Shown here: positions 1 through 62,895 of the stretch, in pieces
How the letters are laid out: every line of letters begins with the position of its first letter
How positions within the stretch are numbered: the first letter of the stretch is position 1
DNA from: an uncultured Caldilineaceae bacterium
GTDB lineage: Bacteria; Chloroflexota; Anaerolineae; Caldilineales; Caldilineaceae
Assembly (NCBI GenBank): GCA_958295915.1
Contig: OY282381.1
Coordinates: 704,722-768,721, forward strand
Direction of reading: 5' to 3'
DNA length: 64,000 nucleotides
The notes under the pieces: model-generated
The model's input: only the letters and a program-made list of their open reading frames with translations
Database searches by the model: none
Told to the model about the DNA's origin: nothing
Made by a program: the position numbers and the translations under genes

Positions 1-1
1 C

Positions 2-3950: not shown

Positions 3951-3960
3951 GAGTTAGCTG

Positions 3961-6022: not shown

Positions 6023-6082
6023 CGATTATCTCGTGGTGGCGTATGAATAGATGGGACTGAGAGCGTCGATGATGGCCATCAG

Positions 6083-7170: not shown

Positions 7171-7230
7171 AACCTCCTCCTTTAATGCCAGTCACAATTG
7201 ATACCAAATGTTGGGTACTATACCCTGTAT

Positions 7231-7390: not shown

Positions 7391-7432
7391 GGGTTCGCAC
7401 TGGTCGCAAACCGGCGCTCAGATCCCGCCAAC

Positions 7433-9414: not shown

Positions 9415-9451
9415 GGTCTTTTCCTTTGGGCGGGCGAGAACGATGGGAAAA

Positions 9452-9519
9452 CCAGTGGTCACCGCAGTTACTGGTTACTGGTCACTAGCCACTGGCCACT
9501 AGCCACTAGCCACTGCAGT
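9452..9519. repeat. Family A repeat, several tandem units
   Basis: The stretch holds at least four CACTAGCC/CACTGG units, such as CACTAGCCACTGGCCACTAG. It fills the gap between the esterase stop (9525) and the oxidoreductase start. Confidence 0.8.
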
Positions 9520-9524
9520 TTTGC

Positions 9525-10811: not shown

Positions 10812-10855
10812 TGGATCTCCTTATGAATTACGAATTGGATACTTCCTAATTGTCC

Positions 10856-10880
10856 ACCTGAAGGGCGCTCATGTCTCAAC
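10856..10880. repeat. Short repeat CACCTGAAGGGCGCTCATG (copy 1)
   Basis: The sequence CACCTGAAGGGCGCTCATG followed by a C/T-rich tail occurs here between the MFS and esterase genes and again at 17634-17655 beside the ctaC stop. Both copies keep the same orientation. Confidence 0.6.
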
Positions 10881-10895
10881 AGGGTATGGAAGCGG

Positions 10896-19768: not shown

Positions 19769-20668
19769 TTATCGACATACGACATTCACGATTCTTGCCA
19801 GCGCGCCCCATTCGGGCAGGGAGAGGGTCTCTGCCCGGCGGCGGGGGTCGATGCCGGCGGCGTTCAGCCAGCCATCCGCCTGCTCCTTAGAGCAGCGCAG
19901 CCCGGCGCTGAGGCTGTTGCGCAGTTGCTTGCGCCGCTGGCCAAATCCGGCCCGCACTATGCGGAAAAAGCCGGCCGGGGGCAGATCGGCGATGGCGGGC
20001 CGGGGGCGCACATCCAGGCGCACAACGCTGCTGTCTACTTTGGGGCGGGGCAAGAAAGCGCCGGCAGGCACTCTGCGCACAGTGCGCGGCCGCGCATAGA
20101 ACTGGACACTCACCGCCAGTAACGACATCTCGCCCGGCTGGGCGACCATACGCTGGGCCACCTCCCGTTGAACCAATAAAACGGCCAGAGTGGGCGGCTG
20201 AGGGCTCTCCAGTATATGCCGCACGACCGCGCTCGTGATGTAGTAGGGGAGATTGGCGACCACTTTATACTGCGTATTGCGTATTGCGTATTGTGTATTG
20301 TGTCTCTGCGTCTTTGCACTTCGGCGTTGCAGTAGTCCGGCGGGGTCGACTTCGAGAATATCGGCGTGGACAAATGCGACATGGGGCTGATGGGCGAACT
20401 GCTCCTGTAGAATGGGAATCAGCCTCTCGTCCAGTTCCACGGCCACGACCCGGCCGGCCCGTTCCGCCAGATGGCGGGTCAACGCGCCGAGACCGGGGCC
20501 GATCTCCAGCACGGTATCGGTGGGGGTCAGATCGGCCGCGTCGGCAATGCGGGCCAGATGGGTATCGTCGATGAGGAAGTTCTGGCCGAGGGATTTCTTC
20601 AGGCCCAGATTGTGTCGGCGGACCAACTCGAAAGGAGAGGGGAGGTCGCGCCGGCTGCTGTTATTCAT
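19769..20668 (-). CDS. rsmA: 16S rRNA (adenine1518/1519-N6)-dimethyltransferase RsmA/KsgA
   Basis: A 299-residue protein. KKSLGQNFLID, the SAM motif LEIGPGLGALTRHLAE (about 55-70) and the catalytic NLPYYITS (139-146) are diagnostic. It dimethylates two adjacent adenosines in the 3' hairpin of 16S rRNA during small-subunit maturation. Residues about 114-134 (QRRSAKTQRHNTQYAIRNTQ) are an extra segment encoded by repeat sequence at about 20275-20335, between the usual DPAGLL and KVVANLPY. Its start lies inside the end of lepA (8-base overlap), indicating coupling. Confidence 0.93.
   Translation of the reverse strand: MNNSSRRDLPSPFELVRRHNLGLKKSLGQNFLIDDTHLARIADAADLTPTDTVLEIGPGLGALTRHLAERAGRVVAVELDERLIPILQEQFAHQPHVAFVHADILEVDPAGLLQRRSAKTQRHNTQYAIRNTQYKVVANLPYYITSAVVRHILESPQPPTLAVLLVQREVAQRMVAQPGEMSLLAVSVQFYARPRTVRRVPAGAFLPRPKVDSSVVRLDVRPRPAIADLPPAGFFRIVRAGFGQRRKQLRNSLSAGLRCSKEQADGWLNAAGIDPRRRAETLSLPEWGALARIVNVVCR
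20275..20335. repeat. In-frame repeat insertion in rsmA
   Basis: GCGTATTGCGTATTGCGTAT is followed by TGTGTATTGTGTCTCTGCG and TCTTTGC. The TCTGCGTCTTTGC part is the reverse complement of the GCAAAGACGCAGA motif at 18543-18555; related motifs occur at 46247-46310. The segment preserves the reading frame. Confidence 0.65.
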
Positions 20669-22529
20669 CCTCCAGACTCAGGACAGTCATAAACGCCTCC
20701 TGCGGAATCTCCACGGAGCCGACCATTTTCATGCGTTTTTTGCCAGCTTTCTGGTTTTCGAGCAGCTTGCGCTTGCGGGTAACGTCGCCGCCATAGCATT
20801 TGGAGAGCACATCTTTACGCAGGGCCTTCACATTGGCCCGGCTGATAATTTTGTTGCCAACCGCCGCCTGAATCGGCACAGCAAACAGCTGACGGGGGAT
20901 GATCTCCTTCATTTTGCTCACCATACGCTGCCCCTTGGAATAGGCGTCGTCCCGATGAATGATAACGCTGAGCGCGTCGACCGCTTGGCCGTTGACCAGA
21001 ACGTTCAGCTTGACCATATCCGAGGGCTGATATCCGTCCAGATTGTAATCCATCGACGCGTAGCCACGGGTGCGGGCTTTCAGTTCGTTGTAGAAGTCCA
21101 CAATGATTTCGGCTAAGGGTATTTGAAAGCTGAGTTCCACCCGCTTTGTATCCAGCCATGACTGATTCCTGACTCGGCCGCGGCGTTTCGTCACCAGTTC
21201 GAGAATCGGCCCGATGTATTCGGACGGTGCATAGATCTGCAGCCCGCACCAAGGCTCTTCGATGCGCTCGATTTCATTGGCGTCGGGCAAATCGGCGGGG
21301 CTTTCCAATAGGAACTCCCTGCCGTCGGCTGTCACCACTCGATAGGCTACCGATGGCGCAGTGAAGATAATGTCCAGATCATACTCCCGTTCCAAGCGCT
21401 CCTGAACGATTTCCATGTGGAAGAGGCCCAAAAAACCCAGGCGAAAACCGAATCCCAGCGCCTGGCTGGTTTCTGCCTCGAAGGTGAGCGCGCCATCGTT
21501 CAAATGCAGTTTTTCCAGGGCATCTCGCAGACCAGGGTAGTCGTCTGCATCGGTCGGGTACAGGCCGGCGAATACCATCGGTTTCATAGGCTCATAGCCG
21601 GGCAGGGGCGCCGACGCTGGGTCGGATGCGAGAGTTATGGTGTCGCCGACATCCAGATCCTGTACGCTCTTGAGGCCGGTGGCGATATAGCCCACTTCGC
21701 CAGCGGCCAGTCGGGATGCCTTTACCGGCGCCGGCGTGAGGATGCCGATCTCAATCGGGTCGATCTTCTTGCCGCCGGACATGGCCAGCAGATCCGGTTT
21801 GCCGCTGATGGCGCCGTTCACCACGCGCACGTAGGCCACCACCCCCTTATAGGGGTCGTAATGGCAGTCAAAGATCAACGCCTGCAGCTTTCCACGCGCA
21901 TCCCCCTGGGGCGGCGGCACCTGCAGAACGATTCGCTCCAGCACCTCAGCGATGTTGAGACCGTCTTTGGCGCTGATCTGGATAACATCCTCGGCCGGCA
22001 CAGCCAGAAGATCTTCGATATCCTGGGCGACCTCATCCGGCATGGCCGCCGGCAGATCGATCTTGTTCAGGACGGGTATAATTGTCAGATCCAATTCCAT
22101 CGCCGCCAAAAGGTGGGCTATCGTCTGCGCCTGAATGCCTTGAGAGGCATCCACCACCAGCACAGCGCCCTCGCAGGCCTGGAGCGCCCGCTTGACCTCG
22201 TAGGTGAAATCCACGTGCCCCGGCGTATCGATGAGGTTCATCTCATAGTCTGACGCGCTCCTCTCGGCCCAGCTGCCTCCAGCCTGGGCGCGATCTTTGC
22301 CATCCGACCGGGGAGACGACCTTGCCGCGCGGTCGCGCCGGTGGATCATCCGCACCGCGCTGGCTTTAATGGTGACCCCTTTCTCCCGCTCCAGGTCCAT
22401 CGAGTCCAGCAGCTGTTCCTTCATCTCCCGGTCGGTAACGGTACCGGTATGCTGGAGTAGACGATCGGCCAGTGTGCTCTTGCCGTGATCGATGTGAGCG
22501 ATAATGCAGAAGTTACGAATGTGGTCCAG
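20661..22529 (-). CDS. lepA: Elongation factor 4 (LepA), apparent CTG start
   Basis: A 622-residue ribosome-associated GTPase. The first in-frame ATG (22424) would remove the G1 motif. Upstream, the frame encodes LDHIRNFCIIAHIDHGKSTL, the expected LepA N-terminus, and begins at CTG 22529-22527. An in-frame TGA lies two codons further up (22538-22536) and AAAGGTGA makes a good SD before the CTG. DTPGH and NKID motifs and the C-terminal domain are intact. Residues about 66-93 (DRAARSSPRSDGKDRAQAGG and following) are an insertion in the loop before NLIDTPGH. It overlaps rsmA by 8 bases. LepA back-translocates or remodels ribosomes. Confidence 0.92.
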   Translation of the reverse strand: MDHIRNFCIIAHIDHGKSTLADRLLQHTGTVTDREMKEQLLDSMDLEREKGVTIKASAVRMIHRRDRAARSSPRSDGKDRAQAGGSWAERSASDYEMNLIDTPGHVDFTYEVKRALQACEGAVLVVDASQGIQAQTIAHLLAAMELDLTIIPVLNKIDLPAAMPDEVAQDIEDLLAVPAEDVIQISAKDGLNIAEVLERIVLQVPPPQGDARGKLQALIFDCHYDPYKGVVAYVRVVNGAISGKPDLLAMSGGKKIDPIEIGILTPAPVKASRLAAGEVGYIATGLKSVQDLDVGDTITLASDPASAPLPGYEPMKPMVFAGLYPTDADDYPGLRDALEKLHLNDGALTFEAETSQALGFGFRLGFLGLFHMEIVQERLEREYDLDIIFTAPSVAYRVVTADGREFLLESPADLPDANEIERIEEPWCGLQIYAPSEYIGPILELVTKRRGRVRNQSWLDTKRVELSFQIPLAEIIVDFYNELKARTRGYASMDYNLDGYQPSDMVKLNVLVNGQAVDALSVIIHRDDAYSKGQRMVSKMKEIIPRQLFAVPIQAAVGNKIISRANVKALRKDVLSKCYGGDVTRKRKLLENQKAGKKRMKMVGSVEIPQEAFMTVLSLEDE

Positions 22530-27540: not shown

Positions 27541-30500
27541 ATGCCAACACTCACCCTCAAACCCACGCACAAGCCCATCCGGGAATACTACGCCGCGCTC
27601 GAGCGCTTCGACCGTCTCGGCGTCAGCCATGAAAGCGCGGCGCCAGCCGCCTTTCAGACGCTGCTCGAAGCCTGCGCGCGGCAGTGCGCCTGGACCCTGG
27701 CGCCGGAACAGGCCATCGCGCCTCGTGCGCGCAGAGGCGCATCGAACACTGCGCGCAAGCGGCGCATCATAGTTGACGGCGCCCTGATCGACGATTTCCA
27801 GCTGATCCATGGCATCTGGGAAGCGAAGGATAGCCACGACGACCTGCTGACCGCAGCGCGGCGCAAGTTCGAGGCCGGCTATCCGCATGACAACATCCTC
27901 TTCCAGACGCCGCAACGCGCCATCCTGTGGCAGAACGGTCGGCAGCTGCTCGACGCCGATCTGACCGACCCGGCGCCCCTGATACAGATACTCGAAGCCT
28001 TCTTCGGCTACCGGCCGCAGGAGTACGCCGCCTGGGAGGAGGCTGTCGCGCAGTTCAAAGACAGAGTGCCGGATATCGAGCGCGGCCTGGCGCTGTTGAT
28101 CCACAAGGAGCGGCAGAGCAACCGCCGCTTTGCCACAGCCTTTGGCGATTTTCTGGACAAATGTCGCCAATCGATCAATCCGAATCTCTCTGCGGCCGCG
28201 GTCGAGGAGATGCTGATACAGCATCTGTTGACCGAGCGTCTGTTCCGCACCGTGTTCGACAACCCCGCCTTCACGCGCCGCAATGTCATCGCCAACGAAA
28301 TCGAGAGCGTGATCGACGCGCTCACATCGCAGTCGTTCAGCCGGCCTGATTTTCTCCAAGGCCTGGACCGCTTCTACGTGGCCATCGAACAGACGGCGGC
28401 CACCCTGGGTGAGTACTCCCAAAAACAGGGATTCCTCAACACCGTCTACGAGCAGTTTTTCCAGGGTTTTTCGGTCAGGGTGGCCGATACGCACGGCATC
28501 GTCTACACGCCGCAGCCGATCGTCGATTTCATGGCGCAAAGCGTTGCCCACATCCTGCAAACGGAGTTTGGGCGCTCGCTATCCGACCCCGGCGTGCATA
28601 TCATCGACCCGTTCGTGGGCACGGGCAACTTCATCGTGCGCCTGATGCGGGAGATACGCAGAACCGCGCTGGAGGACAAGTACAGGTCGGAGCTGCACTG
28701 CAACGAGGTGATGCTGCTGCCCTACTACATCGCCAGCATGAACATCGAGCATGAATTTTACGCCGCGACCGGCGCGTATCAGCCCTTTGAAGGCATCTGT
28801 CTGGTGGATACCTTCGACCTGGCGGAGGACCGACAGCTGCCGCTGTTCGCGCCGGCGAACACACAGCGCCTGAAGACGCAGAAGCAGACGCCGATGTTCG
28901 TGGTGATCGGCAATCCGCCCTACAACGTGGGCCAGGTCAACGAGAACGACAACAACAAGAACCGCAAATATGAGACACTGGACAAGCGGGTGCGCGAGAC
29001 CTACGCGCAAGATTCCAAGGCGACCAATAAAAACGCGCTCTCTGACGCGTATGTGAAGGCGATTCGCTGGGCGTCGGATCGGATTGGCGAGGAAGGGATT
29101 GTCGCCTTTGTAACCAACAACAGCTTTCTCGACGCTGTGGCCTTTGATGGCATGAGAAAACACTTGGCAGACGATTTCAACGCCCTGTATATTCTGGATT
29201 TAAGCGGGAACGTACGCAAGAATCCGAAGCTCTCAGGCACAACGCACAACGTCTTTGGAATTCAGGTCGGTGTCAGCATCAATTTTTTCGTTAAAAGGCG
29301 CGACAAGGCCAAGGCCCAAGCCGAAATATTCTACGCGCGTGTCGATGAGTTGTGGCGCAAGGAAGACAAATATCGCTACCTTGAGGCAAAGGAACAGTAC
29401 CACAACATCGAATGGCAGACGATAAGGCCGGACAAGCGGCACACCTGGCTGACAGAGGGACTCCACGCCGAGTTTGAGAGCTTTATGCCGCTGGGGAGCA
29501 AGGAAGCGAAGGCGGCCAAAGGCGAGGCGGTGGATGTGATATGCAAGACGTACAGCTGTGGTGTCAATACGGCCCGTGATGCCTGGGTGTACAATTTCAA
29601 CCGCGATGCGCTCACAGAGAACATAAAGCGAACGATTGACACCTACAATAAGCAGGTGTTCAAGTGGGAACAACGGGAAAATCAGAATGCAAACGTCGAT
29701 GATTTTGTGGCGTATGATGACAAGAAAATCAGTTGGAGTCGGGACTTAAAGGCGAAGTTGAAGCGAGGGCGCATGGCCAGATACGCTGACCACAAGCTGA
29801 GGCCATCACTCTATCGCCCGTTTACGCAATCGAACCTTTACTTTGACCGCATGATGAATGATGTCGTATATGTGTTTCCGTCCATCTTTCCTACAGCGGA
29901 GACCGAAACGGAGAATCGGGTAATTTGTATCAGTGGACTCGGAAGCAACAAACCTTTCCACACCTTGATGGCAGATATGATCCCGTGCCGTGACATACTC
30001 GAAAAGACCCAATGCTTTCCCTTCTACACCTACAACGAGGACGGCGGCAACCGTCAGGAGAACATCACCGATTGGGCCTTGGCGCAGTTCCGCAGGCAGT
30101 ACAGCGACGACACAATCGGGAAATGGGACATCTTCCATTCCGTCTACGGCCTGCTGCACCACCCGCACTACCGCGAGCGCTGCCAGGCCAACCTCAAACG
30201 CGATCTGCCGCGCCTGCCCTTTGCCCCGGACTTCCGGACTTTTGCCCAAGCCGGCGCGCGTCTGGCGCAAATCCACGTCGGCTATGAAGAGATGCCCGCC
30301 TATCCGCTGACAGTCAGCGAAAATCCGGATCTGCCGCTCGATTGGCGCGTCGAGAAGATGAAGCTGTCCCGAGACAAAACGCAGATCCGCTACAACGACT
30401 TCCTGACACTCGACGGAATCCCAGCAAAAGCTTTTGACTATCGGCTGGGCAACCGCTCGGCCCTGGAATGGGTTATCGACCAGTACCGCGTCAAGACAGA

Positions 30501-34464: not shown

Positions 34465-34541
34465 GATAGTTGTCCGTCCCGGTCTGAATGGAGTGGTGGC
34501 ATACGTCGCGCTAGCGTAAAATGGAAGAATGCGTTAACATA

Positions 34542-34567
34542 GGGAATTATGTACTTAACTGCACAAG
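34542..34567 (+). repeat. Left terminal inverted repeat of the TnpB element
   Basis: Pairs with 35927-35952, 25 of 26 bases; the only mismatch is G at the tenth base here versus A in the partner's reverse complement. Confidence 0.8.
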
Positions 34568-34710
34568 GATTTCAGCGTGTTGGATTTGCGTAGGATGTGA
34601 GTATGTGGTATCTGGGAATACTTCAAAATAGAACAGGCGGACCTGCTCCATAAGAGAGAAGCCCGTCAGTGCGGCAACACTACGGGCTATGATCCACAAG
34701 GCTATGACTT

Positions 34711-35916
34711 ATGGATACGCCCCAGCTTACCACAATCCATAAAACCTATCAAGAACGAGGCTACTGTTCGCGCCCTGGCTATGCCCGCATCTGTGAGGTA
34801 TTGCGCGCCTGTCGCTGGCTATACAATCGCCCCCTTGAATAGAGACGAGACATATACCGAGCCTGTGGCAAGGGTATGACTCTGTATACGCAGATGAAAG
34901 AACTGACCCAACTGCGGAAGGAACAACAGTTCTGGCGTGATATAGGGATAACAGTTTCTCGCGGAGTCCTGGTACGTGCAGACAGAGCATTCAAGGCTTT
35001 CTTTCGTAGGGTGAAAGCTGGGGAAAAGCCTGGTTATCCACGCTTCAAACCACATCAGCGCTATCAGTGCATCGAACTGTCAGAGGTTACACCGAGCAGG
35101 GTGAAGGGCAATCGTATCAAGGTGAAAGGATTGCCCGCTATCAGAATACGGCCCAATCGTGAATTGCCAGCTAGTAGCCAGTTGAAGGCCTTGCGGATTG
35201 GTATGCACGGGCGTATCCTGACAGTTGACCTTGTCTATGCAGAGGAACAGAACATCCTGGCGCCAGTGGATACTGTGGTAGGCATAGATGTGGGCGTGAA
35301 CGAACGCATGACCTTCAGCGATGGGGATACAGTTTCCCGTCGTATACCTGACCGTACAAAAGAGCAGAAATTACAACGCGCCATCTCCACAAAGAAGAAA
35401 GGCAGCAAGCGTAGACGAAAGACAATCGCCACTTTTGCTCGTGAGAGGCGTAGGAATACGGTGCGCAATCGCAATGAATGCCATCGGTTGACCACCGCTA
35501 TCGTGCGAAACTATCAGAAGATAGCGGTAGAAAAGTTGGCAATCAAGAACATGTCTCGTACGGGCGGAAGTCGGAAACGTGGCTTGAATCGCAGTATGGT
35601 GGAACAGACTTGGGGATTGCTATTTCAACAGTTGCGCTACAAGGCAGAATGGGCCGGTAGACAATTCGTTGAAGTTGACCCCCGCTATACATCCAAGACC
35701 TGTTCCCGTTGCGGTGAAGTAAGGAAAGAGAAGCTGGCGGTTTATCGTGTCTTTGTCTGCCCTTTGTGTGGGCATACGGAAGATAGAGATACCAACCCGC
35801 TAAGAATATTCTACGACGTGGATGGGGAATCAGGAACGAGGGGCAGGTCTGCCTGCCCTTCCCACCCACTACAACGCGGGTGGGAATATCCCGCGCAGCC
35901 GACGCGAGTCGGCTGA
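34711..35916 (+). pseudogene. tnpB: RNA-guided nuclease TnpB, interrupted by an in-frame TAG
   Basis: The frame runs from ATG 34711 through RACRWLYNRPLE to TAG at 34840-34842 (codon 44) and then continues in the same frame to TGA at 35914-35916, about 400 codons in all. Downstream of the TAG the RuvC-like triad is intact: Asp in VVGIDVGVNE (codon 193), Glu in VEKLAIKN (274) and Asp in EDRDTNPLR (358-360). The zinc ribbon CSRCGE/CPLCGH is also present. A restart at ATG 34876 would give 346 residues lacking part of the N-terminal domain. TnpB normally cuts DNA guided by an RNA from the element's right end. Confidence 0.85.
35841..35914 (+). ncRNA. Candidate omega-RNA (reRNA) scaffold hairpins
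   Basis: Three consecutive stems overlap the tnpB 3' end: GGGCAGG/CCTGCCC (35841-35847/35852-35858), TCCCACCC/GGGTGGGA (35860-35867/35878-35885) and AGCCGAC/GTCGGCT with GCGA loop (35897-35903/35908-35914). The location matches the TnpB guide-RNA scaffold, whose guide would be read from the sequence past the right end. Exact RNA limits are not determinable here. Confidence 0.5.
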
Positions 35917-35926
35917 GAAAGATATA

Positions 35927-35952
35927 CTTGTGCAGTTAAGTATATAATTCCC
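35927..35952 (-). repeat. Right terminal inverted repeat of the TnpB element
   Basis: Reverse complement of 34542-34567 with one mismatch. It contains TATAAT (35943-35948) and ends only nine bases before the ATG of the next dehydrogenase gene. Confidence 0.8.
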
Positions 35953-43973: not shown

Positions 43974-43991
43974 TTGAAAGGGCGGATGCCG

Positions 43992-46900
43992 ATGGACCCA
44001 CGCACATTCGTGGCGCTTGATCTGGAGACAACCGGGTTGAACCCCAAACGGGACGCCATCATTGAGTTCGGCGCGGTGCGTTTTCAGAGCGGTTCAGCGC
44101 GAGAACGCCTTACTTCCTACGTCAATCCTGGCCGTCCTATCCCTTTGCGTATTCAGCAAATTACCGGCATTCGCCCTGCTGACGTGGTCGACGCGCCCTC
44201 ACTCGAAAAGCTGACGCCAGAAATTCTGGCCTTCATCGGCGGTCGTACCGACGCAATTGTCGCCCATAGCGCCGGCTTCGATATCTCTTTCCTCAGGGCA
44301 GCCGGGGTACAGGTGCATCGACCTGTGCTGGACACATACGAACTGGCGACGATTCTGCTGCCAGCCCAGGATAGCTACAGCCTGGGTGAGCTATGTCGGG
44401 CGCTGGCGATCCCCCTGCCCACGGCGCACAGGGCCGCCCACGACGCCGAAGCCACCGCCGATCTGATGGCGCGCCTGTTGCAGGAGATCGAGGCCCTGCC
44501 CACCGCCACATTGGAGACGCTGTGCGCCGCCGGCGCAGAGAGCGACTGGGGAGCGATGCTCCTGTTCCAGGATGCTTTGCGCCGCCGACGCAGGAGCGCA
44601 TCACCACCGGCTCGAAGCGCCGTGTTTGCCCCTGCGCCAGCTATGGCCGCCCCGATAGATCTGCCATGGCCGCCCCAGGAGGAGGAGCAAGAGCGCGCAA
44701 CCGCTGACATCTCCGACAGCCTGATTGCGGACGAATTCCTGACCGCGGCCTTCGCCGAAGACGGACCGCTGGCCGCAGAGTTCGACAGGTTGGATGGCGC
44801 AACACCCCAGCAGTTGGGCATCGGCGCGCCTCTCAATAGCGCCAGATTCGAACGCCGTGACGGTCAGCTGGAGATGGCCCGTCAGGCGCTGGACGCTTTG
44901 AACCGAGGAGATCACAAAATCATCGAAGCGGGTACCGGAACTGGCAAAAGCCTGGCCTACCTGTTGCCGGCTGCAGCCTGGGCCATGGTCAACGACAGCC
45001 GGGTCGTCATCGCTACCAATACCATCCCCCTGCAAGATCAGCTTCTGGAGCGGGAGCTGCCCCGGGTGCTTCAGGCGTTGGCGGCAACGAACCCAGCAGA
45101 AGCGCGGGCTGCGTCCGCGGAGAGAGAAAGGGAAGGGCAAAGCCCGAATGGCGTCAGCCGGCCGCCTGTCCGCGCAATGGCGCTGAAAGGACGTTCCCAT
45201 TACCTGTGTACCCGACGGCTGGCCCGCTGGCTGGGAAACCGTGCCCTTTCGCCCTTGGAGTTGCGCTTCCTGGCGAAGATTCTCGTCTGGCTGCCCCACA
45301 CCCAAACCGGCGATATCAGCGAACTGGCAATGCACGACCGGCGGGAACAGGCATTGCCGGCGCGCGTCTCTTCCCTTGCGGACGAATGCAGCCCGGAGCG
45401 CTGTATGGCGTGGGTTGCCCCCGGTCAACCCAACAACATCGGCCACGAGCGCTTTTGGGATTTCTATCTGCAAGCCCATCGCCAAGCCAAATCAGCGCAT
45501 CTGCTGGTGGTCAATCACGCCTTACTGCTGGCGGATGTGGAGACGAACGGCCAGGTGCTGCCGGCCTACGACAATCTGATTGTGGACGAGGCGCACCACT
45601 TGGAGAGCGCGGCGACCGAGCAGTTTACTCAGCGCGTGGATCTCCGTACCCTGGCATCGCTGGTGACAGCGACAGAGCCAGATCGGGACGTGGCCTCGCT
45701 GCTGGCCGCTGTGGCCAATCGCACGGATCAACAGGGGCTTGCGCCACCAGGACGCTCGCAGGGGGGCGAGTCGAAGAGCGGTACGCCACATCGTTGGCTC
45801 TGGCTGGCGCGCCAGTTGGCAGCCGACCGGCGGCCATTGCAGACGAGCATCCCAGACTTCTTCAAAGCTCTGCTCGATTTTGTGCGGCGTCATAGCGAGA
45901 TGCGGCCCAAACCCGGCTATCCCCAGCGATTGGCATTGGACAACCGGATGCGTGCCCAGCCGGACTGGAGCGAAATCGAAATTAAATGGGACGAGGTCAG
46001 TATGCAGATCGGCCAACTGCTTAGCCGGCTGGCGGAGTTGGCCGACGCGCTGGACGCAGCCCACTGGTGGTTGAGGGAGCGCGCCGCAGATGTCGCGCCC
46101 TACAGGGGCGCGCCCTACACAACCGCAGATGCCGCGCCCTACAGGGGCGCGCGCTACACAACCGCAGATGCCGCGCCCTACAGGGACGCGCGCTACACAC
46201 CCTTTGCGCAGCGTGCGAAACCCGAATCGAGGGCTGAGCACGACATTGAAGGCAAAGACGCAGGGCCGCAAAAACGCAAAGAGTCAAGCCTGAAAGCAAA
46301 GACGCAAGGGGAGATGCCCGAATTGGCTGAGCGCGAAGCTGGCAGCCGATTCCTGCAGGCTCTGCACCGCGCCCATGCCAATCTGGCTGGCATGTTGCAG
46401 GTGGCGGATGATGTGATTTTGCGCCCGCTCCACATCCAGGAACAATCGGTGGCCTGGCTGGAGCTGAACGACAAAGCCGATGCAGTTATGGTGTGCAGCG
46501 CGCCAGTACAGGTGAGCGAAAAGTTGGCCGCCGATCTGTTCCGGCCCCGACGCGCGGTCGTGCTCACCGGCGCAACCCTGCAAGCCGGGGATCGCTTCGA
46601 CTTCCTGCGGGATCGGCTGGGCTGCTGGGATGCCAGCGGAACCGTCATCGACAGCCCTTTCGACTACAAGCGCAATGTATTGCTCTATATGCCCAGCGAT
46701 ATGCCGACGCCAGATCGACACAACTATCAGCAGGCGTTGGAGCAGGCGATACTGCAGACGGCGCTGGCCGCGGGCGGCAGAACGCTCGTTCTGTTTACGA
46801 GCCACAGTCAGTTGCGGGCCACCGCAGAGGCGGTCCGCGCGCCTCTGGCCGCTGCCGGGTTGCCCGTTCTCCAGCAGGGCGAGGGCAGCCGCCGCCGCAA

Positions 46901-47306
46901 CCTGCGCGACTTCCGCGCCAATCCACGCGCCATCCTGCTCGGCACGAGCAGCTATTGGGAAGGGATCGATCTGCCCGGCGAGCAGCTCGTCTGCCTGCTC
47001 ATCGCTCGCCTGCCCTTTGCCGTACCGTCGGATCCGCTCTTCGCCGCGCGCAGCCGTCTGTACGAAGATGCCTTTCACGAGTATGCTGTGCCGGACGCGA
47101 TCATTCGTCTGCGACAGGGATTCGGTCGGCTGATTCGCAGCGCAACCGATCGGGGGGTCGTCGTCCTGCTGGACAGCCGTCTGTGGCAGCGTAGGTACGG
47201 CGAGGTCTTTCTGGACGCGCTGCCCGCTTGCGCCACGCGACACAGCCCACTGTCGCATCTGGAAGAGTCGGTGCGCAACTGGCTGTCTACATCTGCACTG
47301 CAGTAA
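43992..47306 (+). CDS. dinG: DnaQ-like exonuclease fused to DinG-family helicase
   Basis: About 1104 residues from MDPRTFVALDLETTGLNPKR; a TTG at 43974 and an ATG at 43986 are alternatives. The N-terminal 3'-5' exonuclease has D10-x-E12 (LDLETTG) and HDAEATADL. The XPD/DinG helicase has Walker A GTGTGKS (about 313-321), DEAH (about 531) and QGFGRLIRS (about 1040). Only three of the four Fe-S Cys expected are visible (YLC; ECSPERC). Residues 698-741 are a threefold 13-residue repeat from Family B repeats, followed by AAAGACGCAGGG-type sequence. Further loops near 371-400 and 575-598 look inserted. Likely a DNA repair enzyme. Confidence 0.9.
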   Translation: MDPRTFVALDLETTGLNPKRDAIIEFGAVRFQSGSARERLTSYVNPGRPIPLRIQQITGIRPADVVDAPSLEKLTPEILAFIGGRTDAIVAHSAGFDISFLRAAGVQVHRPVLDTYELATILLPAQDSYSLGELCRALAIPLPTAHRAAHDAEATADLMARLLQEIEALPTATLETLCAAGAESDWGAMLLFQDALRRRRRSASPPARSAVFAPAPAMAAPIDLPWPPQEEEQERATADISDSLIADEFLTAAFAEDGPLAAEFDRLDGATPQQLGIGAPLNSARFERRDGQLEMARQALDALNRGDHKIIEAGTGTGKSLAYLLPAAAWAMVNDSRVVIATNTIPLQDQLLERELPRVLQALAATNPAEARAASAEREREGQSPNGVSRPPVRAMALKGRSHYLCTRRLARWLGNRALSPLELRFLAKILVWLPHTQTGDISELAMHDRREQALPARVSSLADECSPERCMAWVAPGQPNNIGHERFWDFYLQAHRQAKSAHLLVVNHALLLADVETNGQVLPAYDNLIVDEAHHLESAATEQFTQRVDLRTLASLVTATEPDRDVASLLAAVANRTDQQGLAPPGRSQGGESKSGTPHRWLWLARQLAADRRPLQTSIPDFFKALLDFVRRHSEMRPKPGYPQRLALDNRMRAQPDWSEIEIKWDEVSMQIGQLLSRLAELADALDAAHWWLRERAADVAPYRGAPYTTADAAPYRGARYTTADAAPYRDARYTPFAQRAKPESRAEHDIEGKDAGPQKRKESSLKAKTQGEMPELAEREAGSRFLQALHRAHANLAGMLQVADDVILRPLHIQEQSVAWLELNDKADAVMVCSAPVQVSEKLAADLFRPRRAVVLTGATLQAGDRFDFLRDRLGCWDASGTVIDSPFDYKRNVLLYMPSDMPTPDRHNYQQALEQAILQTALAAGGRTLVLFTSHSQLRATAEAVRAPLAAAGLPVLQQGEGSRRRNLRDFRANPRAILLGTSSYWEGIDLPGEQLVCLLIARLPFAVPSDPLFAARSRLYEDAFHEYAVPDAIIRLRQGFGRLIRSATDRGVVVLLDSRLWQRRYGEVFLDALPACATRHSPLSHLEESVRNWLSTSALQ
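46084..46221. repeat. Family B repeat, 3 x 39-base in-frame tandem array in dinG
   Basis: Units begin GCAGATG at 46086, 46125 and 46164, an exact 39-base (13-codon) period, each with the self-complementary core GCGCCCTACAGGGGCGC (the third unit varies by one base). The tail TTTGCGCAGCGTGCGAA is the reverse complement of the TTCGCACGCTGCGCAAA element at 58407-58423. Confidence 0.85.
46247..46310. repeat. AAAGACGCA-type repeat in dinG
   Basis: GGCAAAGACGCAGGGCCGCA, then AAACGCAAAGAG and GCAAAGACGCAAGG follow the Family B array and encode KDAGPQKRKESSLKAKTQG in frame. Related motifs occur at 18543-18555 and 20315-20327. Confidence 0.65.
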
Positions 47307-48584: not shown

Positions 48585-49802
48585 ATGCGAATCTGCCTGG
48601 TGAGTAATGAGTATCCCCCTGCCGGCACGGGGGGAATCGCGGCGTATGTGTATGTTTTGGCCCATGGATTGGCGGCAGCCGGACAAGAGGTCACAGTCAT
48701 AGCTGGGGCCGCGCATAAACCAGTGGCTAGTGGTCAGAGGCTAGTGACCAGAAACGGCGTCGGCCACTGGCCACTGCTCGCCGCCCCCCGCAGTTCTCTC
48801 TCCTCCGCTGGCGTGATTCGACGCCAGGGGCGCGGCATCCGGACTATACTGGAACGCAGTTGGGTCGTTGACCGCACAATCGCCAGCCTTGAACACACGC
48901 AAGGACCTTTTGATGTGGTCGAAATGCCCAACTGGGGCGCAGAGGCCATCTTTTACAGTATACATCCACGCGCCCCGCTCGTAATCCGCCTTTCTACACC
49001 GCTTGCATTGGTCGATCAGTTCAAAGCCAGATCCGCAACAAGAGTAGGCTTTCGCCTGCACTGCTATTTGGAAGGTCTTCCCGCACGCCGCGCGGCCTGT
49101 ACCATTGCCCATAGCAGATTCATCACCAACTACTGCGCCAATCTCTACCGGATACCAGCCGCTACATCATATCTGATCCCGCTCGGCATCACAGCGCCGC
49201 CCGTTCCAGCGACGAAGAGCGCGGCTGATAAAGTGGTTACGATTCTATTTGTGGGCCGTCTCGAAAGACGCAAAGGAATCGACTATCTGCTGCAAGCCAT
49301 CCCACGCGTGACGCGTAGCGTGCCGCATGTAAAATTTGTTATTGCCGGCCTGGACACAGGCGATGCCCCGCAAGGGATGACCTATCAGGATTATTTTGCC
49401 AGCTTTGCCACGCGCGCGGCGCGCCAGGCAACAACGTTCTTGGGCTATGTCGAAGATAGGGCGTTGGCCCAACTGTATGCGGATTGTGACGTTTTCGTAG
49501 CGCCATCTCTGTCTGAATCGTTTGGACTTATCTACCTGGAAGCTATGGTTCGCGCCAAACCAGTGATCGCCTTCCGCACAGGCGCCGCGCCAGAGGTGAT
49601 CGAACATGGCAAGACCGGCATTCTGGTTGCGCTGAACAACAAAACCGAACTGGCGAATGCCTTGATCAAACTGGCTGAAGATATGGATATGCGCCAGGAA
49701 ATGGGAAGACGCGGCTACGACCGCGCGCGTGCGGAATTCTCCGCGCAGCGCATGATCGCCGCCACACTTGCCTGCTATCGCCAGATCAAAGCGAGACTAT
49801 GA
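48585..49802 (+). CDS. Glycosyltransferase, GT4-like, with internal repeat insertion
   Basis: A 405-residue protein starting MRICLVSNEYPPAGTGGIAAY. The donor-site motifs are FVGRLERRKGIDYLLQAI and PSLSESFGLIYLEAMVRAKPVIAF. Residues about 45-64 (AHKPVASGQRLVTRNGVGHW) are encoded by a Family A repeat at 48721-48776, inserted in frame between the first beta strands of the N-terminal domain. KPVASGQ there resembles the TAVASGQ tail of the first gene. Whether this copy is active is unclear, though the frame is intact. Confidence 0.87.
   Translation: MRICLVSNEYPPAGTGGIAAYVYVLAHGLAAAGQEVTVIAGAAHKPVASGQRLVTRNGVGHWPLLAAPRSSLSSAGVIRRQGRGIRTILERSWVVDRTIASLEHTQGPFDVVEMPNWGAEAIFYSIHPRAPLVIRLSTPLALVDQFKARSATRVGFRLHCYLEGLPARRAACTIAHSRFITNYCANLYRIPAATSYLIPLGITAPPVPATKSAADKVVTILFVGRLERRKGIDYLLQAIPRVTRSVPHVKFVIAGLDTGDAPQGMTYQDYFASFATRAARQATTFLGYVEDRALAQLYADCDVFVAPSLSESFGLIYLEAMVRAKPVIAFRTGAAPEVIEHGKTGILVALNNKTELANALIKLAEDMDMRQEMGRRGYDRARAEFSAQRMIAATLACYRQIKARL
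48721..48776. repeat. Family A repeat inserted in frame in a glycosyltransferase
   Basis: CAGTGGCTAGTGGTCAGAGG, CTAGTGACCAG and GGCCACTGGCCACTG lie inside the coding sequence without breaking the frame. Confidence 0.8.
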
Positions 49803-51445: not shown

Positions 51446-51468
51446 GCGCCTCTTTCGAGCAGAGACGC
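51446..51468. repeat. Family C palindromic repeat, left flank of GT2 gene
   Basis: GCGCCTCT, loop TTCGAGC, then AGAGACGC. It is the reverse complement of 52514-52536 with one mismatch (22/23). Confidence 0.75.
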
Positions 51469-51495: not shown

Positions 51496-52557
51496 ATGCA
51501 GCTACCCACCCTGTCGGTCGTCGTCATCACCTACCAACGCGAACAGGTCTTATGTGATACCATTGCGCGCTTGCTGTCACTCGACTATCCACGCTGGGAG
51601 CTTTTGGTCGTCGACCAGACGCGGGCGCACGAGCCGTCGACACAGTCATTCCTGCAACAGGTCTCTCCCAAGATCCGCTATCTTCGCATTCAGAAGGTGG
51701 GCATATGCCATGCGCGCAATGTGGGTATCGAGGCGGCCCGGGGCGAGCTTATGCTCTTCTGCGATGACGATATCATTCCTGACCCGAGTTTGCTTACAAT
51801 GCATGCTCGTCATTATCGGGATTCCTCGGTTGGCGGCGTCACAGGGGCTACCCATATTCAACGGCGCGACAATGCCCGAAAAGTTCGGGCTTCGCACGAT
51901 GCGCAAAGGTTGTTGACGCGCCCCTGTAGGGCGCAAAATCTGCGGCGCGCTCAGCCCTCAATGGGAGGTGGCGCCGTCGAACTCCAGCCTTTGGCGGCAG
52001 ATGGCCCTGTCTTTCTGTTACGCGGCGGGGAGGCGCGGCGCGGGCCTCCGCCCGCCACTGTGGTTGAGGCAGATAGCGCGACCGGTTGCAATATGTCATT
52101 TCGCAAGCAACTTCTGGCGCGTATCGGCGGCTTTGACGAAGGTTTCATCCACCGGGCGCACCGAGAAGAGACCGACGTCTCGCTGCGTGTGCGGGCGCTG
52201 GGCTATCGTCTCCTTTTTGATCCAGAGGCCAGAGTTGAACATCTGGTCTTCCCAGCGGGCGGAAGTCGCTCACATGCAAATCAGGACAGACAGTATACAT
52301 ATGGTTGGTTCCACAACAATGCCTATTTTTTTGGCAAGCATATGCCTCTGAAACATCTGCCCTATTTTTTGCGCTATCACCTTGGACACCTGTTGTATCG
52401 CCAGGTCTGGCAACGGCGACGAGTCATGGCCCTGTATCCGGCGCTTGCCGGGATGGCAGACGGTCTCGGACGCGGACGGAAAGCCCGACGACAGAATCCG
52501 AGCAAGGTTGCATGCGCCTCTGCTCGAAAGAGGCGCGATAGGGATAGACCCGCGTGA
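51496..52557 (+). CDS. Glycosyltransferase family 2 with repeat-derived insertion
   Basis: A 353-residue GT-A protein. The N-terminus (LPTLSVVVITYQREQVLCDT) and the metal-binding FCDDDIIPDPSLL (about 90) are typical; a later GGFDEGFIHRAHREETDVSLR holds the acceptor-site ED-like residues. Residues about 120-195 are non-canonical. Part (TRPCRAQNLRRAQPS) is encoded by a Family B copy at 51886-51960. The C-terminal ASARKRRDRDRPA is encoded by a Family C palindrome. The last codons overlap the next gene (GTGA). Confidence 0.82.
   Translation: MQLPTLSVVVITYQREQVLCDTIARLLSLDYPRWELLVVDQTRAHEPSTQSFLQQVSPKIRYLRIQKVGICHARNVGIEAARGELMLFCDDDIIPDPSLLTMHARHYRDSSVGGVTGATHIQRRDNARKVRASHDAQRLLTRPCRAQNLRRAQPSMGGGAVELQPLAADGPVFLLRGGEARRGPPPATVVEADSATGCNMSFRKQLLARIGGFDEGFIHRAHREETDVSLRVRALGYRLLFDPEARVEHLVFPAGGSRSHANQDRQYTYGWFHNNAYFFGKHMPLKHLPYFLRYHLGHLLYRQVWQRRRVMALYPALAGMADGLGRGRKARRQNPSKVACASARKRRDRDRPA
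51886..51960. repeat. Family B repeat inside the GT2 gene
   Basis: Begins GGGCTTCGCACGATGCGCAA and ends CTGCGGCGCGCTCAGCCCTC. The same two ends are found, closer together, at 61251-61290. Confidence 0.75.
52514..52536. repeat. Family C palindromic repeat, right flank of GT2 gene
   Basis: GCGCCTCT, loop GCTCGAA, AGAGGCGC; inverted relative to the copy at 51446-51468. It lies within the last codons of the GT2 gene. Confidence 0.75.
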
Positions 52558-53651
52558 ACATTGCCGTGCTATCGTTGCATTTGCCCTCGTCCCGCCGCCC
52601 CAAATGTGGTGGAGTGGCCTACGTGGCGCACCGGCTGGCCAATGCGCTCAGCCAACGGGGCCACGCGGTGACTGTTTTTTCAACCGATGAACGCCCGCCG
52701 GATGCCCGCTACCAGGTGCGGACTGTGACAGCCACCGCCACGGCGCAGCGGAGAGAGGGGTTCTCTCTCCGCTCGCTTCTCTCTCCTCTCTCTTCACTCC
52801 TTCTGAATTGGCAGATCGCCAGGCGCTACGCCGCGCAGGAGTATCGTAGTTTTGATATTATCCATGCCCATGGAGATGATGCGTTGATTTGGAATCCTGG
52901 CCCGCCCGTAGTTCGCACTTTTCATGGGGCGGCCATGGCCGAAGCCATCTATGCGACTACCTGGCGGAAACGGCTCTGGTATCTCACCTTTGCCCCGCGC
53001 GAGATCTGGGAAGCGGCGAAGGCAACAGTGGCGGTGGCGGTGAGCGCCAATACACAACGTTACATGCCTTTCATCGATCTGGTGATACCGAATTCAGTGA
53101 ATCGCCGCATATTTTATGCTGACAACAGCTCCACAACGCATCCCACCATCCTGTTTGTGGGCACGTTGGCCGGACGCAAACGTGGACAGCTGTTGCTGGA
53201 GATCTTCCAATCACAGATTCGGCCTGCTCTGCCCAGCGCGGAACTCTGGTTGGTGGCGGAACGGAGCGTGGAGACGCCTGGCGTTGTCTGCTTTCAGAAA
53301 CCAGATGAAAACACATTAGCCAATCTCTATCGCCAAGCCTGGGTTTTCTGTCTGCCCAGCGCCTATGAAGGCTTTGGCGTCCCCTATATTGAAGCGATGG
53401 CCTGTGGCACGCCCGTGGTGGCGACACCCAATGCGGGCGCGCGTGAGGTGCTGGACGGCGGCAGGTGGGGTATTCTGGCCCCTCCAACAGAATTGGGAGC
53501 GGCGCTGCTGTCACTCTTACATGATGCCCAGAAACGACAGATAGTGTCGCAGCAAGGGTTGAAGCGGGTAGAGACGTTCGCGCAGGATCGCATCGTAGAA
53601 GCCTATGAATCTCTTTTCGAAAGAACCATCCAAGGAGAAGCGAGTACATAG
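52554..53651 (+). CDS. Glycosyltransferase, GT4-like
   Basis: A 365-residue protein starting at GTG inside the previous stop (GTGA). RPKCGGVAYVAHRLANALSQ is the usual N-domain acceptor loop; LFVGTLAGRKRGQLLLE and SAYEGFGVPYIEAMACGTPVV form the donor site. Residues about 62-85 (TATAQRREGFSLRSLLSPLS) come from a CT-rich repeat (52740-52800) in a loop. Its 3' end overlaps the next gene by 47 bases. Confidence 0.86.
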   Translation: MNIAVLSLHLPSSRRPKCGGVAYVAHRLANALSQRGHAVTVFSTDERPPDARYQVRTVTATATAQRREGFSLRSLLSPLSSLLLNWQIARRYAAQEYRSFDIIHAHGDDALIWNPGPPVVRTFHGAAMAEAIYATTWRKRLWYLTFAPREIWEAAKATVAVAVSANTQRYMPFIDLVIPNSVNRRIFYADNSSTTHPTILFVGTLAGRKRGQLLLEIFQSQIRPALPSAELWLVAERSVETPGVVCFQKPDENTLANLYRQAWVFCLPSAYEGFGVPYIEAMACGTPVVATPNAGAREVLDGGRWGILAPPTELGAALLSLLHDAQKRQIVSQQGLKRVETFAQDRIVEAYESLFERTIQGEAST

Positions 53652-57133: not shown

Positions 57134-58387
57134 ATGTTGCCACCCATGAAGTTGCCACCCATGAACAGTACAACGCGGATCAGCTACATCCTTGACGCCC
57201 GCGCCGCCACTGCCCACTTTCCCGGCATTGGGCGCTACGTGCGCAATCTGACATCAGCGCTGGCGCCCCAACTGGCCGCTGGCGAACATCTGACGATCCT
57301 CTGCAACCCGAGAGAAAAGAGGGAAGAGGAGAGAGAACTGAAAGGGGGTTCTCTCTCTCCTCATAGGGCTGGATCACAAGTCGAAATCAAATCCGCGGGC
57401 GCCTCCCTCTTCGGCCTGAGTCAGCAGTGGCGCATTCCTCTGCTGCTCAAGCGGCTGAGATTCGACAAACTTCACGCAACCAGAACCGATCCGCAATTTC
57501 CGATCTCCAGTTGCCCCGCTCTGTACCACAGCCCCTACTACCTCATGCCCTACCGCCCCGGCTTGCCGACCCTCCTGACCTTCTATGACGTAATCCCGCT
57601 CAGATATCCACAGAGTGTGTCGATGCGGGCCAGACTGTTGTATCGTCTGACTACAACCCTCGCCCTGCGTGCGGCAAGCCATGTGGTTGCGATCTCCGAG
57701 GCGGCCAAAGACGATCTCATGCGCTATTTTTCCGTTCCGCCCGCTCAAGTCAGCGTCACGCCTCTGGCCGTCACTACCCGGTTTCAGCCCCAACCCGCCG
57801 CCAGGGTCGAGCGCGTGCGAGGCAAGTACGCTCTGCCGGCGCGTTTTGTCTTCTATCTCGGCATCAACAAACCCCATAAAAATCTGCCGGCCCTGATCGA
57901 TGCGTACGCTCAGCTGCCTGCTCGGCACGCGCCGCCACTCGTCATCGCCGGCGCTTGGGACGAGCGCTATCCACAGGCCAGACAACGGGCGGAGCGACGA
58001 CGACTCGGCGATTCTGTGCGCTTCCTCGGCCCGGTGGACGACGCGGATCTGCCCGCCCTCTACCGGGCGGCAACCCTTTTCGTCTTTCCAAGCCTGTATG
58101 AAGGATTCGGTCTGCCGGCGCTGGAGGCAATGGCCTGCGGCACACCCGTGGCCTGCAGCAATACAGCCAGCCTGCCGGAGATCGCCGGCAACGCCTGCCG
58201 ACTGTTCGATCCACACTCTGTGACGGCAATCAGAGATGCGATTGCAGAACTGTTGGAGGACGGTTCGTTGCGCAGTAAACTTAGCGAGCGAGGATTGTCT
58301 CAGGCGAGCCGCTTTTCCTGGCGCGCGACAGCTGCCAAGACCCTGCACTGCTACCGGCTAGTAACTGCAGTGGCTGGTGGTCAGTGA
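57134..58387 (+). CDS. Glycosyltransferase, GT4-like, last of cluster
   Basis: A 417-residue protein. The first codons contain a direct repeat (TTGCCACCCATGAA twice), so starts at 57134, 57146 and 57161 are all possible; 57161 (MNSTTRISYILDARAA) fits the family best. FYLGINKPHKNLPALIDAYAQ and PSLYEGFGLPALEAMACGTPVACS form the donor site. Residues about 57-78 (NPREKREEERELKGGSLSPH) come from a GA/CT-rich repeat at 57305-57370. The tail TAVAGGQ and its stop come from a Family A repeat, paralleling the first gene's TAVASGQ. Confidence 0.86.
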   Translation: MLPPMKLPPMNSTTRISYILDARAATAHFPGIGRYVRNLTSALAPQLAAGEHLTILCNPREKREEERELKGGSLSPHRAGSQVEIKSAGASLFGLSQQWRIPLLLKRLRFDKLHATRTDPQFPISSCPALYHSPYYLMPYRPGLPTLLTFYDVIPLRYPQSVSMRARLLYRLTTTLALRAASHVVAISEAAKDDLMRYFSVPPAQVSVTPLAVTTRFQPQPAARVERVRGKYALPARFVFYLGINKPHKNLPALIDAYAQLPARHAPPLVIAGAWDERYPQARQRAERRRLGDSVRFLGPVDDADLPALYRAATLFVFPSLYEGFGLPALEAMACGTPVACSNTASLPEIAGNACRLFDPHSVTAIRDAIAELLEDGSLRSKLSERGLSQASRFSWRATAAKTLHCYRLVTAVAGGQ

Positions 58388-58403: not shown

Positions 58404-58505
58404 GGCTTCGCACGCTGCGCAAAAGTTGTGTAGCGCGCGCCACTGTAGGGCGCGATACTGTATTACGCGCCACTGTATTACGCGCCACTGTAGGGCGCGA
58501 CATCT
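58404..58505. repeat. Family B repeat with tandem CGCGCCACTGTA units
   Basis: Starts GGCTTCGCACGCTGCGCAAA, then four CGCGCCACTGTA/CGCGATACTGTA units. It fills the space between convergent genes and, read on the minus strand, encodes the C-terminal tail of the pantothenate kinase. Confidence 0.8.
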
Positions 58506-61250: not shown

Positions 61251-61290
61251 GGCTTCGCACGCTGCGCAAAACCTGCGGCGCGCTCAGCCC
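61251..61290. repeat. Family B repeat upstream of the VanW gene
   Basis: GGCTTCGCACGCTGCGCAAA then CTGCGGCGCGCTCAGCCCTC. It is a short form sharing both ends with the copy inside the GT2 gene. Confidence 0.8.
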
Positions 61291-61320
61291 TCACCTCGTG
61301 GACGCCCAAGATGCGCCTCC

Positions 61321-62895
61321 CTACGTCCGCAACTGGGGAATACTATACAGGAAAGGGATGGCTATGTCCAGCGCGATCAGCAACAGAAATAGGGAGCCGT
61401 ACAGGACGAGGCGCATATTTTTTTCTGCGCTCCGTCTGAGCGCAGAAAGCAGGCCGGTCAGCAGCAGGCCACCGCCGGCAAGGCCAAACAGCAGAATCGT
61501 CCAGTTGTCCATAGCGCCAACGGCCATGCCCGCCGCGGCCACAAGCAGAAGCCCTCCGGCAACGATGCTGGCCCGCCTCTCCAGAACTGCCCACCAACCC
61601 ACAGCGAAAAGCAGACTCCAGGTGGGCAGAGCCGGGAAAAGATAGCGCCCCTGATGCTGGATGAAGCCCAGATTGTACCAGCCATAGGCGGCAAAGGCCC
61701 CCAGCCACAGCAGCAGCAGAGCCATCCATCCATCAGCAGGTTTGATGGGCTGTCTCAGCCAGAAAACGACTCCAACTGCCGCCATCATGGATAGGATGAA
61801 AAGGCCTGTATAGATGCGAGCGTCCATAAAAACGCCCAACCAGCCGAATACCCCCCAAAAACTCTTGGCCGTGAAATGCCAGGCCCGCTCCCAATAGGCG
61901 CCCCAGCCGTTTTCCGCAATCCATGCGGCTGTGGTCGGCTGCCCGCTCACCACTGTGTCGTGCCAGGCCAAGCCAAGAAAGTCTGTAGCGCCGTATACGA
62001 GGCTGTTGCGGATCCACAGAGGCAGGCCGAGGAGAAAGGCCGGCGTGATGAGAAGCGCGTACTGCCGACCGAGCGCCCTGACAGACAGACGACTCCCCCC
62101 AACAGACTCCGCGCCCACTACCATAAGAGCGACAGGCAGAAGGATATAGGCAGTGGCCTTGGTGAGAAAGCCGAGACCAATGAGGATCGATAGCGTGATA
62201 CAGTGTTGAATGCGCCTGTGTTGAATGCGCCTCTGCTCGCAAGAGGCGCGCTGGTGAAAGCGTGCAGTAGGATTGTCCCTTCCCTGCCCCGCATCACCCA
62301 GCCGCTGCCAGCGCAGTAGCGCCAGCGCAGCGGCGGCGATCACCAGTTCGGCCAGCGCATCGTTGTTGACCGCGGCCATCAACGCCAGGTGCATGGGCAG
62401 GAAGGCGGCGAAAGCGGCCGCGCCCAGCGCGATAACCGGTCGATCGGGAAGAACTACGCGCGCGCAGGCAAAGACCAGCAGCACGATGCCGCCGCCCAGC
62501 GCAGCATTGAACAGCCGCAAAGCCAGCAGATTGCCGCCGCTCAACCAATAGACCGGCGCGGCCAGCAGATAGTAGAGGGGTGGTTGATGAAACTCATAGC
62601 GTAGCGCTGAAACGGACAAACCCGGCGCAAACTTCTCGTCCTTCAGCCGCTGCAGATACGCTTCGTCGTAATCGCCCATCTGCAGAACTGGCCATCGCCG
62701 TTCGGTCGCCACATAGGCCACATAGTTGTAGTGGGCCGGCTCGTCCGGATTCTGCCAGGGCGGGGTCGTGAGGGCGAAAAGCGTGGCTAGGGCGCAGTAA
62801 ACGATCAGGATACAAAGTAAAGCGTAAAGGGTTAGATTCGACGGCGCGCCCGCCCGGCCTTGGCTGTGATTCGGATGATGGACAGGAAAAATCAT
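61321..62895 (-). CDS. GT-C type membrane glycosyltransferase (DUF2142/GT39-like)
   Basis: A 524-residue protein with about twelve helices. The first extracytoplasmic loop has TPPWQNPDEPAHYNYV, whose DE pair is the usual catalytic acid motif of GT-C enzymes using polyprenyl-phosphate sugars. A hydrophilic stretch of about 35 residues (RFHQRASCEQRRIQHRRIQH) at mid-protein is encoded by Family C repeats at 62204-62249 and breaks a membrane region. It likely transfers a sugar outside the membrane, possibly finishing the glycan of the nearby cluster. Confidence 0.83.
   Translation of the reverse strand: MIFPVHHPNHSQGRAGAPSNLTLYALLCILIVYCALATLFALTTPPWQNPDEPAHYNYVAYVATERRWPVLQMGDYDEAYLQRLKDEKFAPGLSVSALRYEFHQPPLYYLLAAPVYWLSGGNLLALRLFNAALGGGIVLLVFACARVVLPDRPVIALGAAAFAAFLPMHLALMAAVNNDALAELVIAAAALALLRWQRLGDAGQGRDNPTARFHQRASCEQRRIQHRRIQHCITLSILIGLGFLTKATAYILLPVALMVVGAESVGGSRLSVRALGRQYALLITPAFLLGLPLWIRNSLVYGATDFLGLAWHDTVVSGQPTTAAWIAENGWGAYWERAWHFTAKSFWGVFGWLGVFMDARIYTGLFILSMMAAVGVVFWLRQPIKPADGWMALLLLWLGAFAAYGWYNLGFIQHQGRYLFPALPTWSLLFAVGWWAVLERRASIVAGGLLLVAAAGMAVGAMDNWTILLFGLAGGGLLLTGLLSALRRSAEKNMRLVLYGSLFLLLIALDIAIPFLYSIPQLRT
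62204..62249. repeat. Family C palindrome with 15-base direct repeat, in frame
   Basis: TGTTGAATGCGCCTG/C occurs twice (62204-62218, 62219-62233) and runs into GCGCCTCT...AGAGGCGC (62227-62249). It lies inside the GT-C gene without a frameshift. Confidence 0.75.

Follow-up and report, generated by a model that had tools for sequence, protein, structure and literature searches.

In-gene repeat segments of dinG, of a glycosyltransferase gene (GT2) and of a GT-C gene in an uncultured Caldilineaceae bacterium are copies of a set of short hairpin elements specific to this genome, and we give a probability of roughly 0.55 to the reading that these units move by hairpin-dependent transposition in trans. 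For the hairpin set itself we observed a high copy number limited to this genome, exact insertion, tandem arrays and, at one locus, inversion of the loop. The window, the whole stretch of 64,000 nucleotides that was analysed, covers bases 704722-768721 of a one-contig genome of 5,064,531 bases, whose closest named records by DinG search are Caldilineaceae MAGs (Chloroflexota). The comparison set consisted of 16 genomes of the same genus (17 with the present genome). Our reading covered about one quarter of the genome (1.28 Mb), 400 kb of which was picked for richness in copies; figures from an 864-kb sample are unaffected by this choice, except that the sample includes the window itself. Gene calls came from a simple hexamer method, with homology backing the named cases.

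Hairpin families and their copy number

Words over-represented in 864 kb of sequence led to the hairpin families. In families A and C a unit is made up of a GC-rich stem-loop and, behind it, a short tail. The A unit, of 33 bp, is (W)MC-GCGCCTC-N9-GAGGCGC-ATTCAAC (spelled with its loop, GCGCCTC-TTTCGAGCA-GAGGCGC-ATTCAAC), and family C reads GTCGCGCC-CTACAGT-GGCGCGC-AATACAAC(CTT), with its 3' part also rendered as GTCGCGCC-CTACAGT-GGCGCGC-AATACAACCTTT. Family B, an imperfect palindrome of 48 bp (TGAGGGCTGAGCGCGCCGCAGGTTTTGCGCATCGTGCGAAGCCCGAAT), can hold C centrally, as it does in dinG, in GT2 and at window positions 58404-58500. Folding as single-stranded DNA gave z -3.9 for A and z -3.3 for C, and family B folded no better than shuffles (z -1.0). 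The A loop is found in either orientation with respect to the tail, and C forms tandem arrays with a period of ~30-33 bp and an array-specific sequence. Unit length can depart from 33 bp, since tails differ among copies and tandem periods span 30-36 bp. No terminal GTAG or CGTC tag appeared when 57 A and 37 C copies were profiled by position, compensatory stem changes were few, for which reason we make no claim that the hairpin is under selection, and an Rfam search of 124 kb returned only tRNAs and no known RNA family for the repeats.

As the earlier note had predicted, the repeats have many further copies in the genome: 324 of family A (up to 3 mismatches) and 467 of family C (up to 2 mismatches), compared with 0-3 and 0-2, respectively, in each of the 16 sister genomes. 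Pattern-reversed controls in the present genome gave 0 matches for A and 1 for C, and because these are near zero, chance is excluded for both families. Outside the genus there are almost no copies of A, and the exact A or C core was not found in viral contigs. G011, G015 and other same-genus genomes hold one to three A-like hairpins each, some with compensated stems (GCGCCCC..GGGGCGC), and these are possible ancestors of the expansion. The earlier note had spoken of several unrelated families. Several there are, with heptad and purine repeats as a separate class, but A, C and C-in-B share a hairpin-plus-tail design.

A composite element in dinG

The dinG gene (43974..47306, + strand; Pfam RNase_T, DEAD and Helicase_C_2) encodes an exonuclease domain plus helicase and has 16 same-genus homologues. 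These align over DinG residues ~2-702 and ~790-1106 and not between, residues ~704-788 having no counterpart in 16/16 of them; in the alignment the linker is short in relatives versus ~85 residues here. Most of residues ~700-751 are encoded in frame by a family B element with three family C units set into it (46070..46227, +). The family search placed C matches at 46094-46190 and the B 3' end at 46204-46227, and the B 5' end, TGAGGG..AGCGCGCCGCAG, was recognised by eye. TRF and a direct-repeat search both detected a tandem array of 3 x 39 bp with one C hairpin per unit (~46084..46200, +). This array had been described as exact; its period of 39 bp and copy number of 3.0 stand, but copies 2 and 3 have 95% and 90% identity to the first. 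By its sequence, the segment is a B element with a triplicated C inside.

The remaining private DinG segment (46228..46337, +), defined by alignment, holds part of a second B 5' end together with AAAGACGCA-type sequence (family D type), which follows the array as first noticed and extends to about 46310. When each listed segment was searched against 1.28 Mb of the genome for dispersed copies, this one gave a single short match, and 0 copies were found for two further private DinG insertions located by alignment with relatives, a purine-rich one of 15 aa (45093..45137, +) and another of 19 aa (45747..45803, +). The AlphaFold model of DinG is of low quality (mean pLDDT 45) and served only to show that residues 702-787 have very low confidence and lie between two predicted helices.

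Other sites in the window

The syntenic dinG-to-GT-C cluster, together with rsmA and lepA, was taken from sisters, and nearly every listed site was checked. Family matches located a B element with one C unit in frame in GT2 (51496-52557, +) at 51883..51960 (-), and the corresponding residues are missing from 12 aligned relatives. GT2 ends in a C-terminal tail made by a family A unit (52507..52547, -; core 52514-52536), which has dispersed copies in the 1.28 Mb, and a non-coding A unit lies 5' of the gene (51446..51468, +). In the GT-C gene (61321-62895, -), an A unit (core 62227-62249) and a 15-bp direct duplication stand in frame at 62203..62260 (-), and alignment with sister sequences identified the residues as private. 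Relatives therefore lack the DinG, GT2 and GT-C residues, the outcome on which the earlier note had staked its reading. The window also contains a family B copy without C between genes (61251..61293, -) and, in a type ISP restriction-modification gene (27541-30639, +), an A-like hairpin (27718..27740, +) at residue 59 that the gene's paralogues share.

The other proposed insertions form a mixed group. Those of unassigned type in lepA and coaX fared differently: lepA has 20 private aa over two blocks (22260..22334, -), with 0 dispersed copies in 1.28 Mb, but in coaX (58478-59302, -) only the C-terminal tail is read from the end of a C array (58429..58500, -), with 5 further private residues. 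Repeat insertions had likewise been proposed for rsmA, several glycosyltransferases and the GT-C gene, which is borne out where GT2 and GT-C carry A, B or C but not for GT3, whose private 12-aa insertion of CTCTCTCC type (52746..52781, +) has 0 dispersed copies in 1.28 Mb. Three segments are repeat-derived: a heptad repeat of CAGTGGCTAGTGG type in GT1 (48719..48752, +) and a purine-rich repeat of GAGAGAAAAGAGGG type in GT4 (~57311..57350, +), each with dispersed copies in 1.28 Mb, and TGCGTAT heptads in rsmA (20271..20300, -), with one or two short dispersed matches. They lie, however, in loops that already vary in sequence, and for the most part in length, in every relative, and the net gain in rsmA is ~4 aa. 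The heptad (CACTAGC in GT1, TGCGTAT in rsmA) and purine repeats are mostly intergenic.

Ordinary loop divergence, meaning drift of repeat-like or low-complexity sequence where loops tolerate it, with no insertion at all, fits lepA, GT3 and the two further DinG inserts, and perhaps rsmA, GT1 and GT4. For families A, B and C it is refuted by near-identical hairpins at hundreds of unrelated places and by exact empty sites, and as a general account it is very improbable.

Two gene starts are also unusual. LepA begins TNLDHIRNFC, with an ACG codon (window ~22513-22516, minus strand), versus MNLDHIRNFC in relatives, and its first ATG is 35-40 codons further downstream, indicating an unusual start codon or a sequence error. 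At the GT4 start (window 57136-57165), an exact 15-bp duplication, GTTGCCACCCATGAA, yields MLPPMKLPPMN.

Distribution of copies among genes

Among 60 A clusters in the 864-kb sample, 36 were intergenic, 18 interior and 6 terminal; the 49 C clusters divided into 25 intergenic, 20 interior, 3 terminal and 1 edge. Interior A, B or C copies were present in 35 of 703 genes (~5%) of this sample, with the ISP family excluded. One ISP restriction-modification paralogue family accounts for 6/18 interior A copies, which probably go back to a single old event. From the A counts, density per kb is ~15-fold lower within genes than between them, consistent with selection against most in-gene copies. When the same gene finder was applied to 400-kb samples of G011 and G015, the two genomes that represent the sisters in this comparison, repeat islands were intergenic in 38/42 and 69/70 cases, respectively, and the listed word families of both genomes were nearly all intergenic. 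The sisters have high-copy repeats of their own, for example GGGGCGCAGCCCC hairpins and CCACTGA heptads (L165-L184 of G011; L185-L204 of G015). Elsewhere in the present genome, locus L132 (about 1-12000) has long internal tandem or paralogous repeats, with dozens of self-matches >400 bp.

Genes with in-gene A, B or C copies include ligA (DNA ligase), dnaE (DNA polymerase III), mfd, hflX, hisF and hisA, as well as a pseudouridine synthase gene, cinA and the gene of a protein with EF-Tu-like GTPase and APS kinase domains. Some of these hosts (DNA ligase, DNA polymerase III) are presumably essential. All six reading frames are used by in-gene copies, and open reading frames pass through the insertions in many genes. 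Sister alignments were done for LigA, which has private segments, and for HisF, which has a clean insertion of ~16 residues, and the DnaE, Mfd and HflX hosts were identified by gene calling with homology support. At a second LigA site a C copy has taken the place of a loop and lengthened the protein by a net two residues, so simple insertion does not describe every case; the rsmA repeat, which replaces a loop with little net gain, also speaks against simple insertion.

Exact empty sites

Exact filled and empty paralogues were found as two pairs only, L130/L139 (intergenic) and L264/L143 (within a type ISP gene, by Pfam). In both, the filled copy is longer by 33 bp (11 codons) that comprise (W)MC, the hairpin and ATTCAAC, with identical unit ends. 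Flanks of the coding pair are 86-89% identical, and its proteins read NAQAE[PRLCSLEAHST]IFYARVDELW versus NAQAEIFYARVDELW. Neither the flank tests nor the two empty sites revealed a target-site duplication, with at most ~1 ambiguous base. A third pair, L147/L152, differs by +30 bp at ~72% identity.

At ISP residue 59, the 11-bp loop CTTGCGAGCAG of one paralogue is present as its exact reverse complement in others. The sampled quarter contains at least 10 copies or fragments of the type ISP family (window 27541-30639; L136, L142 (two), L146, L147, L245, L250, L252, L256), each with an A-like hairpin at this residue. Tail orientation differs between the chromosome halves (Fisher p 0.008 for A and 0.0025 for A+B, with the boundary picked post hoc).

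An assembly or binning artefact is scarcely credible as the source of these insertions. Genome records of the group are largely MAGs and the contamination estimate is 4.5%, but the genome is a single 5.06-Mb contig, reading frames continue through insertions in many genes, copies differ mutually, and exact empty and filled paralogues exist.

How the units may move

Fixed ends, no target duplication, a hairpin, an inverted loop and some indication of strand bias recall single-strand transposition of the IS200/REP kind as established for those families. The units would move as folded single-stranded hairpins, by IS200/REP-like single-strand transposition with an enzyme acting in trans, and we consider hairpin-dependent transposition in trans somewhat better than an even bet. 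Insertion would usually leave a gene readable because A is 33 bp (11 codons) and 5/6 frames of its consensus are open. Copies may then stay where loops and linkers tolerate extra residues.

Profile searches bear on the kind of enzyme. PF01797 (Y1/RAYT transposase) matched 0/17 genomes, with the control matched in five named genomes, and PF04986 (Y2) had no match in the genome or in the control genomes. The missing Y1 match counts against the transposition reading, as does the fact that no other mobilising enzyme came to light. The genome does contain an IS-like element with an IS605-type TnpB (window ~34539-35937; TnpB 34876-35916), which has about nine copies across the 864-kb sample. Some of these carry subterminal hairpins and one (L147) lacks them; the termini of this IS (AAGTATATAATTCC), the one whose ends were compared, are unlike A or C. 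Classical REPs moved by a RAYT (Y1) transposase, recently lost or too divergent for the profile, would agree in size, hairpin and missing target duplication, and the multicopy TnpB-type IS may formerly have had a Y1 partner. Against this stand the absence of PF01797 matches despite the working control and A and C profiles without a GTAG or CGTC tag; on both grounds we rejected membership of the RAYT/REP system and regard its past activity as improbable.

The main rival dispenses with dedicated transposition: hairpin-aided template switching between short homologies in replication or repair, followed by slippage expansion. It would account for the array-specific C units, the variable tails, the replacement of loops in LigA and rsmA with little length change, the loop inversion at an inverted repeat and the missing Y1 match (PF01797, 17 genomes). 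It accords poorly with two independent insertions that share their 33-bp ends and show no clear microhomology, and with hundreds of dispersed copies limited to one species, and we think it rather unlikely, preferring transposition of the hairpins in trans.

Three other candidates were set aside. The hairpin inside the TnpB-type IS (GGGCAGGTCTGCCTGTCCC) occurs almost solely within IS copies and is not a dispersed family. Loss of the SbcCD hairpin nuclease is not indicated as a cause, as the weak SbcD-like match is the same as in sisters. An integron attC-like origin was suggested by the A tail, where GTTGAAT fits GTTRRRY, and was dismissed by reasoning that C tails misfit and the empty-site junctions are wrong.

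Relation to known repeat systems

Likeness to the palindromic elements of Rickettsia (RPEs), as the earlier note suggested, holds in part. RPEs are ~150 bp long, encode a conserved peptide and number 44 in R. conorii (Ogata et al. 2000, reviewed in PMC10969869). As with RPEs, several palindromic families lie in frame in many unrelated genes, housekeeping genes among them, and are missing from orthologues, as found for DinG, GT2, GT-C, LigA and HisF. Unlike RPEs, whose size is about 100-150 bp, the exact insertion here is 33 bp, and only the B/C composites, of up to ~150 bp, come near; the copies number in the hundreds, six frames are used, there is no conserved peptide and the phylum is another.

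GTAG and CGTC REPs are likewise dispersed hairpins of 20-40 bp with short tails and in-gene copies, a description that A and C fit (PMC3733652). CGTC REPs, too, lack a known transposase, and intragenic REPs have been noted to favour genes of DNA synthesis and repair, DNA ligase and DnaE among them (PMC3733652). A and C differ in being untagged, no Y1 transposase was detected in the genus, and the repeats of the two sampled sisters are nearly all intergenic.

MITEs, ERIC, RUP and Correia elements are also short, non-autonomous, dispersed and sometimes in genes (PMC10969869, PMC2229807). The present units differ from them in having no target-site duplication and a single hairpin with an asymmetric tail; MITE-type elements have the terminal inverted repeats of an IS, and A and C units instead have one hairpin. 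STRR-type heptanucleotide tandem repeats are known from cyanobacteria. CACTAGC in GT1 and TGCGTAT in rsmA are similarly 7-bp direct repeats, mostly intergenic, with occasional in-gene copies, and are not the main phenomenon here (for heptanucleotide tandem repeats see PMC4692102).

The best reading is that these are REP/RPE-like frame-neutral hairpin elements. Intragenic REPs and RPEs, including the DNA ligase and dnaE bias, are already documented (PMC3733652, PMC10969869). New here are the lineage, a 33-bp unit that is untagged, the failure to detect a Y1 enzyme, the difference from two sampled sisters, and empty sites that are exact; our literature search, which took in few subscription journals, returned no paper on such elements in Caldilineaceae. 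More tentatively, a frame-neutral 33-bp unit, moved by a non-Y1 enzyme or process, may have recently colonised one Caldilineaceae species and given new segments to ~5% of its genes, some of them for enzymes of replication and repair, while the main repeats of the two sampled sisters are extragenic.

In-gene copies appear to outnumber the 44 RPEs reviewed for R. conorii. For annotators, odd loops in MAG proteins may be real repeat insertions. The genome offers a direct system for studying the spread of short palindromes where no transposase is obvious, the reasons why some lineages exclude repeats from their genes and one admits them, and the way in which proteins accommodate 11 extra residues whatever the frame.
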